A stretch of DNA of 64,000 bases, from assembly GCF_028867935.1 (NCBI RefSeq), contig NZ_JAPQNS010000003.1, positions 310,001 through 374,000 on the forward strand. The letters are read 5' to 3'. The notes beneath the pieces are model-generated. The model did no database searches, had not been told where the DNA came from, and saw nothing but the letters and a program-made list of their open reading frames with translations. This document shows, piece after piece, positions 1,394 through 56,014 of the stretch (position 1 is the stretch's first letter; every line of letters begins with the position of its first letter). Origin of the DNA: Flavobacterium sp. SUN052. Lineage in GTDB: Bacteria > Bacteroidota > Bacteroidia > Flavobacteriales > Flavobacteriaceae. The position numbers were made by a program, and so were the translations under genes.

Positions 1394-1400
1394 CTTGGAT

Positions 1401-3464
1401 ATGAAAAAAATCCTGTCACTTGGAATCGCTCTTACGCTCTTCCATTCTTACGCTTTCTCGCAAAGCCGACCTATGACAGAGGATGATTATTACCGCATAG
1501 TAACCTTGCCCGTACCCGAAAATGTCAGTCTGGAAGTAGGTGGTTTAGCCCCTCTGCCCGACGGGCGTTTGGCGGCCTGTACTCGCCGGGGCGATGTGTG
1601 GTTAATTGGCAACCCCTACATGCAGGGAAGCCGGATGCCGACATACAAGAAATTCGCGACCGGCATGCACGAACCACTGGGCCTGATGTGGCACCCAAAA
1701 GGGTATTTGCTGTGTACGCAGCGGGGCGAAGTAACGAAACTGATCGACAACGATGGCGATGAGGTGGCCGACGAATACAAATCGTTTTATAAGTGGCCAT
1801 TATCGGGGAATTACCACGAATACAGCTACGGCCCGGTGCTGTTGCCCGATGGCGATATGGTTATCACCCTCAACCTCGACTGGGTTGGCCGGGGTGCCAG
1901 TTTAGCCAAGTGGCGCGGCTGGATGCTCAAGCTGAACGAAAAAGGCGAAATGACGCCTTGGGCTACGGGTCTCCGGTCGCCAGCGGGTTTCACCGCACTG
2001 CGTGACGGAAGCATTTTTTACGGCGAAAATCAGGGCGACTGGGTTGGTTCTGGCCGGGTAACGCATTTGGAGAAAGGTGATTTTGCCGGAAACCCGGCTG
2101 GTTTGCGCTGGACAAGCGAAGCCGGTTCTCCCTTGTCGCTCAAGCCCCAGGATGTTCCAAGCACGGGTAAGCCGATGTATGAGGTGGCAAAAACAGTGAA
2201 GAACCTGAAAGTTCCGGCGGTCTGGTTCCCGCACACGCTGATGGGGATTTCGACCTCCGATATTAAAGAAGATACGACACGCGGAGCATTTGGGCCGTTT
2301 GATGGACAGTTGTTCGTGGGTGATCAGGGTCACAGCAAAGTAATGCGTATGACCCTCGAAAAGGTGAATGGCGAATGGCAGGGTGCCTGCTTCCCTTTCC
2401 GTGAGGGCTTGCAATCGGGTATTTTGCGCATGGTTTGGGGTCAGGATGGCTCCATGTTTGTAGGTATGACAAGCCGGGGCTGGGCCTCAACCGGTAAATC
2501 TCCATACGGTATTCAACGGTTGGTGTGGACAGGTAAGGTGCCGTTTGAAATGAAAACCATTTCGTCGCGCCCCGATGGGTTCGAAGTGACCTTTACACTA
2601 CCCGTCGACCGCAAAACGGGTGAAGACCCGAACTCGTACAGCCTCAACAGCTTTACATATAAGTATCACCAAACCTACGGCAGCCCGATCGAGGACGCCC
2701 GCGCCGTTCCAATTCGGGGGGTAGTTTTGTCCGCCGATGGCATGTCAGCCCGTATCGTGGCCGACACGACGCTCAAGCTAGGCTACATTCACGAGGTAAA
2801 AGCCGAAGGCGTTCGGGCTCAATCGGGAAGTTTGCCTCTGTTGCACAACACTGGCTATTATACGCTTAACAACATTGCCCCCGGCGACCGCATCACGAAC
2901 TTACCCGCCCGGCCCGCCAACAACGTTACGGCTTCGGCCAGCACGGGTATGGCTGGGCACAACCATGCCGACATGATGACAACGGCTGGAAAAGGAACGG
3001 ATGCGAAAGCTAAACCGGGAGCGAAGAAACCAGCTGCCGCCAGCGTGAGTGCGAAACGCCTTACCGAACAGCCAGCAGATTGGACAAATGGACCCGATCA
3101 GACCGTTACGATCAGTACTAAACCGGGTCTCAAATTCGATACCGAACAGGTTCAGGTTAAAGCGGGCAGTCGGGTTAAGTGGGTATTCAACAACAACGAC
3201 GATATGTTGCATAACTGCGTGATTGTAAAGCCCGGTGCTGCCGATAAAGTTGGCAACGCAGCAATGCGCTTAAATCTGAATGGGGCAAAAATGAACTATG
3301 TCCCTGTACTGCCCGAGGTAGTGTATCATACCAATATTCTGCAACCTGAATCGTCTGAGAGCATCTATTTCGTAGCTCCCACCGAGCCGGGCGACTATAC
3401 GTTCGTGTGTACGTTTCCGGGGCATCACACCCTGATGCAGGGCACGCTGAAAGTGACGAAGTGA
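1401..3464 (+). CDS. Secreted beta-propeller dehydrogenase-like protein with C-terminal azurin/auracyanin-type cupredoxin domain
   Basis: The ATG at 1401 is chosen because it begins a clean signal peptide (MKKILSLGIALTLFHSYAFSQ); the ATG at 1380 lies in a degenerate repeat. Residues about 25-380 resemble the sorbosone/glucose-dehydrogenase-like beta-propeller (repeated blades such as LAPLPDGRLAA, EPLGLMWHPKG, SYGPVLLPDGDM, GQLFVGDQGHSKV). Residues about 390-500 form a beta-sandwich region. A Gly/Ala/Lys-rich linker follows, then an ~120-residue cupredoxin: His in NNNDDMLHN and the C-TFPG-H-HTL-M cluster at the end reproduce the azurin ligand spacing (Cys, His, Met plus an upstream His). Together this suggests a periplasmic or surface redox enzyme with its own copper electron acceptor; substrate and cofactor are not visible. 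A strong 19-bp hairpin follows the stop. Confidence 0.85.
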   Translation: MKKILSLGIALTLFHSYAFSQSRPMTEDDYYRIVTLPVPENVSLEVGGLAPLPDGRLAACTRRGDVWLIGNPYMQGSRMPTYKKFATGMHEPLGLMWHPKGYLLCTQRGEVTKLIDNDGDEVADEYKSFYKWPLSGNYHEYSYGPVLLPDGDMVITLNLDWVGRGASLAKWRGWMLKLNEKGEMTPWATGLRSPAGFTALRDGSIFYGENQGDWVGSGRVTHLEKGDFAGNPAGLRWTSEAGSPLSLKPQDVPSTGKPMYEVAKTVKNLKVPAVWFPHTLMGISTSDIKEDTTRGAFGPFDGQLFVGDQGHSKVMRMTLEKVNGEWQGACFPFREGLQSGILRMVWGQDGSMFVGMTSRGWASTGKSPYGIQRLVWTGKVPFEMKTISSRPDGFEVTFTLPVDRKTGEDPNSYSLNSFTYKYHQTYGSPIEDARAVPIRGVVLSADGMSARIVADTTLKLGYIHEVKAEGVRAQSGSLPLLHNTGYYTLNNIAPGDRITNLPARPANNVTASASTGMAGHNHADMMTTAGKGTDAKAKPGAKKPAAASVSAKRLTEQPADWTNGPDQTVTISTKPGLKFDTEQVQVKAGSRVKWVFNNNDDMLHNCVIVKPGAADKVGNAAMRLNLNGAKMNYVPVLPEVVYHTNILQPESSESIYFVAPTEPGDYTFVCTFPGHHTLMQGTLKVTK

Positions 3465-3481: not shown

Positions 3482-3526
3482 TAAACAAAAACCAGTTTAG
3501 CACATCACTAAACTGGTTTTTGTTTA
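3482..3526 (+). terminator. 19-bp perfect hairpin terminator
   Basis: Arms 3482-3500 and 3508-3526 are exact inverted repeats around a 7-base loop; the 3' arm carries the T run (GGTTTTTGTTTA). It closes the azurin-fusion gene and isolates it from mazEF. Confidence 0.85.
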
Positions 3527-4769: not shown

Positions 4770-6275
4770 ATGATTTCATCGCTTGAAACAACAGACAATC
4801 TACTGAATAACGTCTTTAATGCTTCGCTAAATGGGATAGTGGTATTTGAGGCCGTACGGAATATTGAGCAAGAAATCGTTGACTTTCGGTACATTTTTGT
4901 GAATGAAGCTGCTCGGAAGCAGGCCCCAATATTAAAAGCGACTACAATTGGCATGACCCGCCGGGAAGTGCTGCCAGAATCGGATTTTTTACGGGCCCAC
5001 TCACTTTGCCAGATGGTCTTACTCACGGGTCAGTCGCATCAGGGAGAGCGATACTACCCGATTATGGATGAGTGGTTTAACACTCATTTTGCTCGTCTTG
5101 ACGACAATCGGTTAGTGGTTACCTTTATTAACATTACTTCTTTTAAGAAGGCTGTTGTGACGCAGCAACAAGAAGCCGAACTGTTTCAAAGTATACTAGA
5201 GACAACAGTAAATCCGGTGGTAGTTGGCATACCTATTTTGCAGGGTGGAGAAATCATCGATTTCAGCGTCGTTCTCTTCAACCAGGCGGCCCAGAAAGCC
5301 TGGCTCTTTGGCTCAGGATTGGCTGTAGGATCAATCACTGCTGATTTGTTACCACTGCCCGAACGTGATCATTTGTTAGCCGTACTTCGGAAAGCTTACG
5401 TAACATCAGAAAGTCAACGGTTTCAATACCGTTATCCCAATACTGATAATTGGTTTAGCCTGACGGTACAGCGATTTAATCAGGGCGTAATTCTGAACGC
5501 CACCGACATTACCGAGGAGAGGCAACAGCAGAATATACTTCGCCAAATGAACCTCGATCTTCGGCAATCGAACGAGAATCTGCAACAGTTTGCCTATATC
5601 GCTTCACACGATTTGCAGGAGCCTCTCCGTAAAATTCATTCGTTCGGTAATTTGTTACAAACGCAGTTTGGCAGTCGGCTCGGTCCCGATGGTAGCGACA
5701 TTATTCAGCGGATGCAAGCCGCTTCGGGCCGGATGACAACGCTGATTCGCGACTTGCTGACGTATTCGCGGCTAACTACGCATCGGGAGCCATTCAGTCC
5801 GGTTTCATTGGGACGGATACTCGATGAAATTATTGAGGATATCGATCCACTACTGCTGGATGGGAAGGCAACCGTCGATTGTAAGGAGTTGCCCACTGTA
5901 CCGGGCGATGCCAGTCAACTCCGGCAACTATTTCAGAATCTGATTGTTAACGCCGTTACGTTTCGTCATGCCGACCGTCCGGCTTACATTAGTGTTCGAT
6001 GCCGTACCCTGGAGAGTGATGAGGTGCCGACAGGTCTATCATCTCAACAACACTACGTTGAAATTAGCGTAACTGACAATGGCATTGGATTTGAAGAACG
6101 ATATACAGACCGAATTTTCCAGATGTTTCAGCGCTTGCATGGCCGGAGTCAGTACAGCGGCACGGGTGTCGGGTTGGCTATTTGTAAACGAGTAGTTGAG
6201 AATCACCAAGGTAGTATTACAGCCACCAGCACTCCGGGCGAGGGAGCAACATTTAGGGTGATACTTCCGATTTGA
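4770..6275 (+). CDS. PAS-domain sensor histidine kinase (soluble)
   Basis: 501 residues without a membrane segment. Two PAS-like regions (residues ~1-125 and ~130-250) precede a short coiled coil (QQQNILRQMNLDLRQSNENLQQ). The dimerisation/phosphoacceptor helix carries ASHDLQEPLRKI at about residue 278 (H-box). The catalytic HATPase_c domain shows the N-box (QNLIVNAVTF), the G1 box (VTDNGIGF) and the G2 box (GTGVGLAICKRVVENH). Members of this group are cytoplasmic PAS kinases, often signalling through unlinked response regulators; no regulator gene is adjacent. The ligand or cofactor of the PAS domains is not evident. Confidence 0.93.
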   Translation: MISSLETTDNLLNNVFNASLNGIVVFEAVRNIEQEIVDFRYIFVNEAARKQAPILKATTIGMTRREVLPESDFLRAHSLCQMVLLTGQSHQGERYYPIMDEWFNTHFARLDDNRLVVTFINITSFKKAVVTQQQEAELFQSILETTVNPVVVGIPILQGGEIIDFSVVLFNQAAQKAWLFGSGLAVGSITADLLPLPERDHLLAVLRKAYVTSESQRFQYRYPNTDNWFSLTVQRFNQGVILNATDITEERQQQNILRQMNLDLRQSNENLQQFAYIASHDLQEPLRKIHSFGNLLQTQFGSRLGPDGSDIIQRMQAASGRMTTLIRDLLTYSRLTTHREPFSPVSLGRILDEIIEDIDPLLLDGKATVDCKELPTVPGDASQLRQLFQNLIVNAVTFRHADRPAYISVRCRTLESDEVPTGLSSQQHYVEISVTDNGIGFEERYTDRIFQMFQRLHGRSQYSGTGVGLAICKRVVENHQGSITATSTPGEGATFRVILPI

Positions 6276-6372
6276 GATGACATCTCGTTCAGAAAGATGC
6301 CATCTGGTAAAGTCGGTACACTAGAGATAACCGCAGGGGCGGCCCCGATTTTTCTGAACAAGATGTCATCTC
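6274..6372. repeat. Inverted-repeat element with AGATGNCATCT units
   Basis: Arms 6274-6295 and 6351-6372 are 22-bp inverted repeats with one mismatch. Each arm holds a near-perfect palindrome AGATG(A/T)CATCT (6275-6285, 6361-6371) and a third unit, AGATGCCATCT, lies at 6295-6305. The centre has a small GC hairpin (GGGC-G-GCCC). The left arm includes the last two bases of the kinase stop codon. The 13-mer CAAGATGTCATCT of the right arm recurs at 21600-21612, so this is probably a dispersed family. It may also act as a terminator, though no T run follows. Confidence 0.7.
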
Positions 6373-33991: not shown

Positions 33992-34054
33992 GACAGGATT
34001 ACAGGATAAGACAGATTTCAGTGAAGAAATCCTGCCTTATCCTGTAATCCTGTC
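33992..34054 (-). terminator. Terminator built from an ACAGGATTACAGGATA-type repeat
   Basis: Arms 33992-34010 and 34036-34054 are 19-bp perfect inverted repeats with internal ACAGGAT repetition. On the minus strand the hairpin is followed by CTATTTTTTAAAATT, so it terminates dxs just before lysC. The arm sequence is of the dispersed kind common in Bacteroidota genomes (from memory). Confidence 0.8.
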
Positions 34055-38988: not shown

Positions 38989-39034
38989 AATTAAACTGAA
39001 CGGGGCAGCAAGCGCGGCCCCGTTCAGTTTAATT
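38989..39034. terminator. Bidirectional hairpin terminator
   Basis: 17-bp perfect stem AATTAAACTGAACGGGG (38989-39005) / CCCCGTTCAGTTTAATT (39018-39034) with a 12-base loop, between the T9SS plug gene and convergent ychF. The right arm overlaps the ychF stop codon. Confidence 0.82.
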
Positions 39035-42496: not shown

Positions 42497-42559
42497 AAAA
42501 GGAGAACGGGATTGCTGGCGCTCATCTACAGAGTGCGCCAGCAATCCCGTTCTCCTTTT
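42497..42559. terminator. 25-bp perfect hairpin terminator
   Basis: Arms 42497-42521 and 42535-42559 are exact 25-bp inverted repeats with a 13-base loop, AAAA at one end and TTTT at the other, so it serves both the DUF58 gene and the convergent TlpA gene. Confidence 0.9.
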
Positions 42560-49382: not shown

Positions 49383-49469
49383 ATTAACCGCAAAGACGCA
49401 AAGGTAGGCGCAAGGAGCGGTAAGAATTCTTCACAACCACTTGGCGAGCTTGGCGTCTTTGCGGTTAAT
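49383..49469. repeat. AACCGCAAAGACGC inverted repeat that supplies the flippase stop codon
   Basis: Arms 49383-49399 (ATTAACCGCAAAGACGC) and 49453-49469 are 17-bp perfect inverted repeats. The TAA stop of the flippase gene (49465-49467) lies inside the right arm. The arm sequence is of a kind that recurs between genes in many bacteria (from memory). Confidence 0.75.
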
Positions 49470-53478: not shown

Positions 53479-54171
53479 TTAGTGAGCGTTTCCGATTTTC
53501 CATTTGAACTCGGCTACTTTCCAGTCTTCCTCGGTATCGATGTCGTGCGCTTGCATTTCGGAGATCACAAGACCTCCTGAATTAGCACTAATTATTTTGC
53601 GGCTTTCGATGAGAGGTGCAGTTTTAAAAAGGTAAAACTGCCCTGCGTCGTGGTACGCTTTTTCCAAGTCCTGCGAGCGAGTGAACTGATATTCGGGTTG
53701 CAACCACCGCACTCCCCCCGAAGCATCTAAACCTACCGCCCGCTGAATGGGAAACCCAAACGCCTGCACTGGATAAACGGTATCAAACGATTCGGCTGTC
53801 AGTTTCTCAAACGCCTGCTGGAGTAGAGCTGCCGTTACGAAGGGCGAGGTTGGATACAGGCAACAGCCAAAATCAAAATGCTGGTTAAGCTGTTTATAAT
53901 CAGCTAACACCTCAAGCAAAACATCGGTAGTTGTGGCAAAGTCATCGGCATTTTGTGCACTTCGTACGAAGGGGACAGAGGCCCCTAAGCTACGGGATAC
54001 TTCTGCAATTTCGGCATCGTCAGTTGAGACCATCACTTCCTCGAACAGACCCGATTGGAGGGCCGCTTCGATAGCATAGGCGATAATTGGCTTGCCGAGG
54101 AATGGTCGGATGTTTTTGCGCGGAATGCGTTTGCTGCCTCCTCGGGCCGTGATAATGGCGACGTTGCTCAT
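53479..54171 (-). CDS. pseF: Pseudaminic acid cytidylyltransferase
   Basis: 230 residues from the ATG at 54171 (MSNVAIITARGGSKRIPRKNIRPF); a TTG three codons earlier is an alternative. CMP-sugar synthetase motifs: ITARGGSKRIPRKN (CTP loop), FLGKPIIAYAIEAAL, EVMVSTDDAEIAEVSR, GCCLYPTSPF, FPIQRAV, DAGQFYLF and AHDIDTEEDWKVAE (C-terminal metal Asp pair). It activates pseudaminic acid as CMP-Pse. First gene of the operon; a TATCTTTG box ends 6 bases before the ATG. Confidence 0.92.
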   Translation of the reverse strand: MSNVAIITARGGSKRIPRKNIRPFLGKPIIAYAIEAALQSGLFEEVMVSTDDAEIAEVSRSLGASVPFVRSAQNADDFATTTDVLLEVLADYKQLNQHFDFGCCLYPTSPFVTAALLQQAFEKLTAESFDTVYPVQAFGFPIQRAVGLDASGGVRWLQPEYQFTRSQDLEKAYHDAGQFYLFKTAPLIESRKIISANSGGLVISEMQAHDIDTEEDWKVAEFKWKIGNAH

Positions 54172-54177
54172 AGTTGA

Positions 54178-54185
54178 CAAAGATA
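54178..54185 (-). promoter_or_regulatory. Candidate -7 box at the pse operon start
   Basis: On the minus strand TATCTTTG, an exact TAnnTTTG match, ends six bases before the pseF ATG (54171). If used, transcription would begin almost at the start codon and the message would be leaderless. No well-spaced -33 TTG was found. For the divergent gene a one-mismatch box CAACTTTG (54215-54222) with TTG 21 bases upstream (54191) is equally close to its ATG. Confidence 0.4.
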
Positions 54186-54226
54186 GAACGTTGTGGTGTT
54201 CCTTATACTTTCCCCAACTTTGCAGT

Positions 54227-56014
54227 ATGTCTGTTTATCGCCTAATTGACTGGAAATACGAACGCCCGTACATCATCGGTTCTTTACTGATTTTGTTTGT
54301 ACTCTATTCGCCTTACTGGCTGCTCGGCCAGAATGCGTACTTTTTGATCCACGATTTTCTGGACGATTCGTCGTATAACTTCGGCCCGCTGGTGTTGTCG
54401 GGACAAGCGTTCAATTTCGGCCCCGATGCTACTGTACCGAATATCATGAACGGTTTGCCACGCGCTGGCATGCATTCCGGCTTGTATGCGTCGGTGTGGT
54501 TTTTTGCCATTCTGCCGCCTTTCTGGGCTATCCTAATCAATTTTCTACTGGTTCACTCACTGGGGTTTGTGGGTATGTATGCCCTTATGTGCACGTATAT
54601 TCTGAATGGTTCTGGCGTGGGTCCTTCCGGTGTAAACGCGCCCGATGAGCGTTTGCTGGCGGCTGGTGTGGCCATGATTTTTGCGCTCATTCCAACTTAC
54701 ACAAACTACGGCTTGTCGGTGATGGGGCAGCCAATGTTGCTGCTGGCTTTTCTGAATCTGCTTAATCGTAGGGCTGGCTGGGGGAGCTGGGTTATTATTT
54801 TGGCTTTTCCATTTTACTCGTTTTTAGTTCGGTCGGGTCTGTATGTATTGGTGGGGCTGGGTATTCTTGGTCTCGTTGACATGATCCGAAATCGGTATTT
54901 CGTTAAAGCATATTGGCTGGGCCTTTTTCTGTTCGCTGGCATTTATGTCTTGGTCGACTTTCCAATGATCGGCGCGTATCTGGGAAATCAATTTGTGTCG
55001 CATCGCAGTGAGTATGATCCCGCTTTATTGATTTCGTCGAGTTTTGTTGGGAACCTGAAAAACATCGTGCTGCTGTTTATACAGGGCCAATATCACGCTG
55101 GAATTTTTTGCCCTGCTCTAATTGTCGTGTTGTGGGTGTGGTGGTTTATCCAAGCCAAACAGAAAATGGCTCTGCCTTTCTGGATTATGGGTGCTATTGT
55201 GGTTATCTGCCTGCTGCACGGCCTATATCCATTACTGATTACCCGTTCGGGCATTCCCCAGCGCTTGCTTACCATTTTTCAACTCGATCGATTTTATTTT
55301 CTATTGCCATTATTATGGATGTTAATGCTGGGGAGGCTGCAAAACCCCACCCCAACCCCTCCCCGTAAGGGAGGGACTAATGCCAAGAGTTTTTTTAGCC
55401 CCTCCCTTACGGGGAGGGGTTGGGGTGGGGTTTTGTTCTTGCAACTCCTCCTCACTCTCGCGCTCAACAAAGAATGGATAGCCAATACCCGAACGCTAGT
55501 AGGGCTTGGTCGCCCGGACCGCCAACCATCGTACCGCGCCTTTTTCGCAGAAGCCTTGTTCGATCGAATCAAAACAACCTTGCCTAGTACTCCCGCTGAT
55601 TACCGCGTTGTCAGTGTTGGGATGCATCCGATTATCGCTCAAACCAACGGTTTTTATACGCTGGATAGCTACCAGAATAATTATCCATTGCCTTACAAAC
55701 ATCAGTTTCGCCAGATAATGGCCGCCGAATGGGCCAAGCCTGAAGCTCACCTGATCCAGCCCTATTTCGATGCTTATGGGAATCGTTGTTACGTTTTTCC
55801 TTCTGAACTCCGCATGGACTGCCTCATTGGTAAAAGGGAAAATCGTGTTGTCAACGACTTACAGTTTGATAATTCAGCGTTTCGGGCGATGGGAGGACGG
55901 TATATTTTCTCGGCGGTGGCCATAAAAAATGCCGCCAGTTTGGGGTGGCGGCAAGTGGGTATTTTCAATGACTCGTTAAGCTATTGGCGAATCTGGGTGT
56001 ATGAAGTTAACTAG
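54227..56014 (+). CDS. Large multi-pass membrane protein, DUF6044-like, with an in-frame repeat insertion
   Basis: 595 residues from the ATG at 54227 (MSVYRLIDWKYERPYIIGS); the open frame to 54092 runs into the divergent pseF gene. About 10 membrane helices. The first periplasmic loop (LLGQNAYFLIHDFLDDSSYNFGPLVLSG) with NIMNGLPRAGMHSGLY is like the acceptor loop of GT-C proteins and DUF6044 membrane proteins. The segment at about residues 372-403 (NPTPTPPRKGG... SPSLTGRGWGG) is coded by an interspersed palindrome (55341-55434) placed between two helices. The gene diverges from the pse operon, so a role in the same surface glycan is possible but unproven. Confidence 0.75.
   Translation: MSVYRLIDWKYERPYIIGSLLILFVLYSPYWLLGQNAYFLIHDFLDDSSYNFGPLVLSGQAFNFGPDATVPNIMNGLPRAGMHSGLYASVWFFAILPPFWAILINFLLVHSLGFVGMYALMCTYILNGSGVGPSGVNAPDERLLAAGVAMIFALIPTYTNYGLSVMGQPMLLLAFLNLLNRRAGWGSWVIILAFPFYSFLVRSGLYVLVGLGILGLVDMIRNRYFVKAYWLGLFLFAGIYVLVDFPMIGAYLGNQFVSHRSEYDPALLISSSFVGNLKNIVLLFIQGQYHAGIFCPALIVVLWVWWFIQAKQKMALPFWIMGAIVVICLLHGLYPLLITRSGIPQRLLTIFQLDRFYFLLPLLWMLMLGRLQNPTPTPPRKGGTNAKSFFSPSLTGRGWGGVLFLQLLLTLALNKEWIANTRTLVGLGRPDRQPSYRAFFAEALFDRIKTTLPSTPADYRVVSVGMHPIIAQTNGFYTLDSYQNNYPLPYKHQFRQIMAAEWAKPEAHLIQPYFDAYGNRCYVFPSELRMDCLIGKRENRVVNDLQFDNSAFRAMGGRYIFSAVAIKNAASLGWRQVGIFNDSLSYWRIWVYEVN
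55341..55434. repeat. 35-bp perfect inverted repeat (CCCCACCCCAACCCC type) in the coding sequence
   Basis: Arms 55341-55375 and 55400-55434 are identical in reverse over 35 bases, spaced by 24. The C-rich arm starts AAAACCCCACCCCAACCCCT and contains CCCCGTAAGGGAGGG. It is read in frame as a Pro/Gly/Arg-rich loop in a membrane protein. Such C-rich elements are dispersed in Cytophagales genomes (from memory). Confidence 0.85.

Follow-up and report, generated by a model that had tools for sequence, protein, structure and literature searches.

How does a C-rich palindrome of 96 bp come to lie, in frame, in the middle of a membrane-protein gene, and what keeps it there? The question is raised by a locus in a stretch of 64,000 nucleotides (the window), where the palindrome, a member of a repeat here called family A, is read through by a gene of the DUF6044 family.

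The palindrome and its host gene

The features on which the analysis is based are the following:

54227..56014, + strand: DUF6044 membrane-protein gene, which holds the insert (ORF call, Pfam, alignment with homologues)
55340..55435, + strand: family A palindromic element, 96 bp, encoding QNPTPTPPRKGGTNAKSFFSPSLTGRGWGGVL, residues 417-448 of the 640-aa ORF
55340..55380, + strand: 5' arm, 41 nt (inverted-repeat search)
55381..55394, no strand: 14-nt spacer between the arms (inverted-repeat search)
55395..55435, - strand: 3' arm, 41 nt (inverted-repeat search)
55357..55375, + strand: inner hairpin of the 5' arm, CCCTCCC-CGTAA-GGGAGGG (sequence)
55400..55419, + strand: inner hairpin or core of the 3' arm, CCCTCCC-TTAC-GGGGAGGGG, the family A core motif (core search)
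55411..55430, + strand: G-quadruplex motif GGGGAGGGGTTGGGGTGGGG (motif match only), with its complement in the 5' arm at 55345-55364

The mechanical ORF (54092-56014, + strand) encodes 640 aa from a TTG start at 54092 and is open through the insert; the true start is probably the ATG at 54227 (MSV), according to alignment with homologues. A Pfam DUF6044 match covers residues 55-640 (E 5.7e-146), nearly the full length, and the original prediction of a palindrome read in frame inside a membrane-protein gene is thus confirmed along an uninterrupted ORF. A structure search with the protein gave weak matches to STT3/ALG12-type (GT-C) enzymes (best E 9e-4). The arms are 98% complementary, with 36 nt of perfect pairing, one mismatch and four further pairs, so that the 35 bp of perfect arm first reported were slightly short. 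Each arm contains a smaller hairpin, and the G strand carries the G-quadruplex motif. This palindrome goes well beyond what chance would produce: it has the top score among 40 inverted repeats found in a 464-kb sample of its own genome, and a loose core pattern has a chance expectation of 0.06 in the window.

The AlphaFold2 model (mean pLDDT 80) has helices at 398-416 and 443-458 and, linking them, a coil at residues 417-442 in which pLDDT falls below 50 at 432-440. The nearest homologue on the tree (P0002, 90% over the kept columns) lacks the insert, and identity to it is 316/363 before the loop and 169/187 after it; because identity after the loop is as high as before, the frame downstream of the insert is still under selection, which agrees with the earlier suggestion that the element is tolerated in frame. 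Among genome contigs (60 loci), the closest named DUF6044 relatives come from a Cytophagales MAG, a Rudanella MAG and R. paleaurantiibacter. No match to the window was found in Rfam at the gathering threshold, nor to the window element in plasmids and phages (BLAST, low-complexity filter on), and a search of viral contigs for DUF6044 relatives returned none.

The window has further strong inverted repeats at 33992-34054, 42497-42559, 49383-49469, 6274-6372, 3482-3526 and 38989-39034. Those of the GACAGGATTACAGGAT type are also present in other parts of the 464-kb sample, in which the density of strong inverted repeats is about 86 per Mb.

Dispersed copies of family A and their presence inside genes

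The arm is a dispersed repeat, as had been anticipated. The core CCCTCCCNNNNGGGGAGGGG, at up to 3 mismatches, has 70+65 matches in the 8.1-Mb own genome compared with 12+14 for a reversed control (both strands of one near-palindromic arm being often counted), and BLAST with a 116-bp region (E up to 10) returned 86 pieces. The 21 copies inspected vary, but consist roughly of AACCCCACCCC-AACCCCTCCCCGTTAGGGAGGGG followed, after a short spacer, by the arm in inverted form. Family A elements pair two hairpin units in inverted orientation across a short spacer and are scattered over the genome in many copies, which is the pattern that defines REPIN/REP elements. In REPIN-RAYT systems, the enzyme thought to mobilise such pairs in trans is encoded by a gene that the repeat flanks. 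In three relatives, the core at up to 1 mismatch was found 60+57 times (G060, control 1), 4+8 times (G061, control 1) and 7+6 times (G062, control 0), whereas the 12 other genomes (Spirosoma, Emticicia, Hymenobacter and others) gave a single match, in one of them, so that family A looks like a Rudanella-lineage family. These genomes were chosen through their named loci, a first search for relatives having given a protein match in 2 of 60 genomes, one of which was the own genome.

Two further observations concern this genome and its repeats. The 8.1-Mb Rudanella-like genome is grouped as 'same genus' with 36 smaller genomes (1.8-5.7 Mb), a grouping that looks odd, and no DUF6044 protein match was found among those 36. 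Some family A copies (L036, L038) seem to be located within a longer palindrome (CGTTGC ... GCAACG farther out), perhaps a composite subfamily.

A total of 35 sites was examined, which includes some core variants (two of these variants, C2 and C7, come from 3-mismatch matches) and mostly leaves out weak BLAST matches (E about 0.07 and above). At 6 of the 35 sites, one long frame runs through the element with coding sequence on both sides:

window: DUF6044 gene, in-frame family A
L006: glycosyltransferase 2, in-frame family A (Pfam)
L043: MiaB-like, in-frame family A (Pfam)
L126: FAD/Fe-S oxidoreductase, in-frame family A (Pfam)
L034: TMEM260/PMT-like membrane protein, in-frame family A (weak Pfam match)
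L135: SelD-like, in-frame family A (Pfam)

Six further sites, located at a likely start or upstream of one (L009, L044, L036, L053, L129, L130), were left out of this genic count. The description of the element as otherwise intergenic is thus correct for most of the sites examined and fails for the six genic ones, whose inserts are presumably translated, to judge from the open frame. The stretch bearing the insert is skipped by solved structure chains in MiaB and SelD. The insert is absent from the glycosyltransferase of G060, G061 and G065, and from the TMEM260/PMT-like membrane protein of G060, G062 and G065. The G060 glycosyltransferase retains ACCCC-GAC-GGGTGGGG, possibly a deletion scar, and that of G062 has a longer loop without a clear palindrome (41/200 shuffles). 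As a separate observation, a tandem ETSDR repeat occupies the membrane-protein loop in G061 (L166, C335), where the own genome has family A.

By a mechanical rule, 2 of the 40 strong inverted repeats of the 464-kb sample lie inside an ORF. One is the window copy; the other, a palindrome at L205, is judged to be upstream of the likely start and is therefore counted as non-genic. Genic placement was more frequent in family A (6/26) than among other palindromes (0/39; Fisher test, p 0.003), a result that hinges on the L205 call and that compares a genome-wide family with a sample made of the window and 20 chosen stretches. It had also been proposed that the element is accepted in genes because all of its frames are open. 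This proposal did not hold: only 4 of the 6 frames are open in the window copy, and the 26 two-armed family members have a mean of 1.69 open frames compared with 1.67 in the 39 other palindromes, so that frame openness was rejected as the cause of genic placement.

In-frame palindromes are known from other bacteria. The Rickettsia palindromic elements are described in PMC10969869 as dispersed, present in frame in unrelated protein genes and translated, and family A is similar to them in being a palindrome in frame inside otherwise conserved genes (the six sites above, checked against relatives or solved structures). The resemblance concerns this description, and the present case differs in the host phylum, in having a candidate nuclease partner and in the occupancy of one loop by several families. 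The account of intragenic GTAG/CGTC REPs in PMC3733652 states that over half of the inserts are dimers or groups, encoding 20-30 residues; family A is likewise a repeat read inside genes, but no GTAG or CGTC was seen at its hairpin foot (by eye).

Loops occupied by unrelated palindromes

The same DUF6044 loop contains other palindromes in relatives. P0001, which outscores P0002 in the database search, has a shortened version of the insert, and P0003 and P0007 have a family C-like palindrome at the peptide level, that of P0003 reading as an entire family C element (LYNVAVLRW...AQRSTATLYI), the DNA counterpart of which occurs in G000, G060 and G062. A codon-degenerate palindrome test on peptides gave 0/300 shuffles for the window protein, P0001, P0003, P0004 and P0007, marginal values for P0006 and P0008 (17/300 each) and at least 47/300 for the remaining 6 of the 13 rows. 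In Rudanella sp. CAN_BIN22, where the gene is split across two contigs and the palindrome is at a contig end, a family B palindrome is located just before the conserved LLLTLALN (DNA level, 0/200 shuffles). Three palindrome families therefore occupy this loop among relatives, and a tree of 17 rows with the loop columns removed requires a minimum of 5 to 8 state changes, the number varying with the coding of decayed inserts. The original prediction had named two outcomes that would speak against a dispersed element, an arm without other copies in the genome and an orthologous loop without palindromy; what was found are many copies of the arm and homologues in which the segment is either missing, as in P0002, or varied, and this favours a dispersed element.

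The predicted RNA folding of the window element is very stable (-99 kcal/mol compared with a shuffle mean of -51, z -11.9), which, together with the G-quadruplex motif, would be in line with a hairpin or G-quadruplex selected as a regulator of DUF6044 mRNA or of its translation. However, the insert is positioned late in the gene, the nearest homologue does without it and others have unrelated inserts, and we regard a regulatory role as very improbable.

A second loop has a similar history. In the FAD/Fe-S oxidoreductase, the own genome has family A, G060 has a purine palindrome with 27-nt arms and Spirosoma arboris (G065) has a C-rich palindrome with 49-nt arms (0/200 shuffles in both), while the G062 loop contains no palindrome (13/200 shuffles). 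Among the homologues of this protein (120 listed, of which 16 loops were unparsed), 23 of the 104 parsed loops are palindromic at no more than 1/200 shuffles, with about one expected. Unrelated palindromes of relatives thus share the same loop in two genes, DUF6044 and the oxidoreductase. For intragenic REPs, PMC3733652 mentions a case in which different REPs were reported at nearly one position, in Xanthomonas recB. The MiaB loop departs from this pattern, no clear palindrome being found there in any of 11 other genomes (five loops tested, best 7/200; one too short; five read by eye). In the oxidoreductase, the loop after RRNTGYA(V/L)D (P0048-P0167) is a strong insertion site in Spirosoma, Fibrella and Rudanella-like proteins, with inserts of many different palindromic or low-complexity types and with loop lengths of 6 to 58 residues.

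Selection that removes gene-breaking insertions would explain why the intragenic survivors sit in loops and in frame. The presence of several unrelated palindromes in one loop could also be explained if inverted repeats were made locally, by hairpin-templated synthesis or template switching and without transposition, the loop being simply the place where they survive. P0001, seemingly shortened symmetrically in both arms (protein level only), would agree with this, as would the lack of target-site duplications, none of which was seen by eye at the 5 loci aligned to relatives; nor was any transposition event seen. Such duplications, and terminal repeats shared with an autonomous DDE transposon, would be expected of a classical MITE. 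Local events, however, do not yield similar copies at many unlinked sites, as are found for families A and B and, at fewer sites, for family C, which makes a local origin quite unlikely. Loops that accept several unrelated palindromes in frame provide natural replicates for the addition of protein segments by mobile DNA and mark insertion-tolerant sites in conserved enzymes.

DUF559 nuclease genes and their proposed part in the movement of C-rich arms

A candidate for what moves family A was found in G060, in which a pair of family A arms spanning 518 bp encloses a DUF559 gene, all in frame within methylmalonyl-CoA mutase. Its flank score is 31, compared with 11 or less in 30 shuffles, and its arm has 23-35 of 37 positions identical to the best arm of the 21 own-genome copies. 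Six G060 stretches with close arm pairs showed no obvious transposase among their ORFs (by eye, first 70 residues), and one of the six was the one holding the DUF559 gene. The own genome carries a DUF559 relic, broken by in-frame stops and enclosed by C-rich arms (about C7:101396-101914; L213, about 1396-1914, minus strand). Against this candidate, the 1.26 Mb (16%) of this genome that were scanned yielded no intact DUF559 gene, and the own-genome core matches listed include no pair of family A arms with the spacing found around DUF559.

A DUF559-containing gene has been placed in the EDxHD homing endonuclease family (PMC9403480), DUF559 is given as a domain frequent in Vsr-like PD-(D/E)XK endonucleases (PMC12907096), and in PMC6712171 it appears as a table entry; the DUF559 passages of these three papers do not mention flanking repeats. 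The nuclease resembles those of the first two papers, but here it is a free-standing gene or an in-frame insert bracketed by C-rich arms, and short gene-less copies are dispersed.

The association was examined outside Bacteroidota in plasmids, where DUF559 was found at 42 places in 39 records, of which 20 places in 10 genera were taken (those in N. gonorrhoeae, E. coli, P. aeruginosa, Lelliottia, Qipengyuania, Novosphingobium and Sphingobium were left out, as were additional places in genera that were represented by then). With a threshold of inverted arms scoring at least 16, and with gene limits in unannotated records set by hand, paired C-rich arms were found at 11 of the 20 genes (Pseudanabaena 2/2, Picosynechococcus 1/2, Deinococcus 4/4, Azospirillum 2/3, Sphingomonas 1/2, Sinorhizobium 1/2), and a strong pair was absent at 9; these 20 genes are not independent, since they come from 10 genera only, with 4 from Deinococcus and 3 from Azospirillum. 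Eight of the nine without strong paired arms have a one-sided C-rich hairpin (by eye, no control). Random positions in 12 of these loci gave 0/240, compared with 6/12 for DUF559 itself. Because random positions are mostly intragenic, the flanks of 55 other annotated genes were added as a control, and in the annotated records paired arms were present at 8 of 12 DUF559 genes and at 1 of 55 other genes. The sole control gene with arms is an IS4-like transposase adjoining DUF559 in S. meliloti, suggesting that the palindrome may just be a landing site for genes. One Deinococcus arm, searched against plasmids, matched 2 records only, with no dispersed copies seen.

Several DUF559 genes are placed as intruders: at three different sites of Deinococcus hpa gene clusters, between sufB and sufC, inside an N6-methylase-type protein next to brxC (in frame), and between paaD and paaZ, where the arms are of 56 nt and Deinococcus sp. 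QL22 has 83 bp and no gene.

The double-hairpin anatomy resembles that of REPINs, and the own genome contains four Y1_Tnp genes, two of which (L057, L059) are located among other hairpin repeats, one of them being family B, dispersed in G000 and G061; family A might then be an ordinary REP/REPIN moved by a RAYT (Y1 HuH transposase) and inserted by chance into genes that tolerated it. However, the exact C-rich arm string was found within about 1.5 kb of none of the four Y1_Tnp loci, no GTAG/CGTC tag was seen at the hairpin foot of the 21 own-genome copies (by eye), and the GTAG held by some G060 arms is in the hairpin loop, not the foot. With all four Y1_Tnp loci lacking the exact arm string, a RAYT was rejected for now as the mobiliser of family A in this genome, and this explanation is considered unlikely. 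As to L057 and L059 themselves (G000 C12:156882-157226 and C12:97361-97537), their RAYT-like Y1_Tnp genes, each among its own hairpin repeats (GGTCGCTAACGCGA and TGTACGGTGGATTTGTAATCCGCCG types), represent separate REP-RAYT pairs of this genome.

The look-alike arms around DUF559 genes in distant bacteria suggest what may move the palindromes. The window element is probably a REPIN/MITE-like passenger, presumably mobilised by DUF559 nucleases and kept in a tolerant loop. According to the mechanism that we propose, family A would have inserted in frame into the inter-helix loop of the DUF6044 protein and have been retained because the loop tolerates about 30 extra residues. The DUF559 protein (Vsr-like, related to homing endonucleases) would move the arms in trans, by analogy with what is thought of RAYTs and REPINs, perhaps through a nick near the hairpin followed by copying by repair, and the short copies would be derivatives that lost the nuclease gene. 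Family A shares with REPIN-RAYT systems the paired inverted hairpins with a short spacer, but the flanked gene encodes a DUF559 Vsr-like nuclease, not a HuH tyrosine transposase. As a whole, the reading of the segment as a dispersed, non-autonomous double-hairpin element (REPIN/MITE-like) of Rudanella-like Bacteroidota, inserted in frame into a loop that tolerates its roughly 30 residues and moved in trans by DUF559, seems to us slightly better than an even bet. The broader proposal, that DUF559 Vsr-like nucleases mobilise a widespread superfamily of C-rich palindromes in several phyla, as a nuclease-based counterpart of REP-RAYT whose short passengers repeatedly colonise tolerant loops in frame and would leave in one loop a record of successive invasions by unrelated palindromes, is a tentative one, to which we give somewhat less than even chances. 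The strong positional association of DUF559 provides a testable candidate mover, no Y1 transposase of the own genome being linked to C-rich palindromes.

Finally, arm-like peptides were observed at one end of 8 of 120 DUF559 proteins, using a loose pattern.
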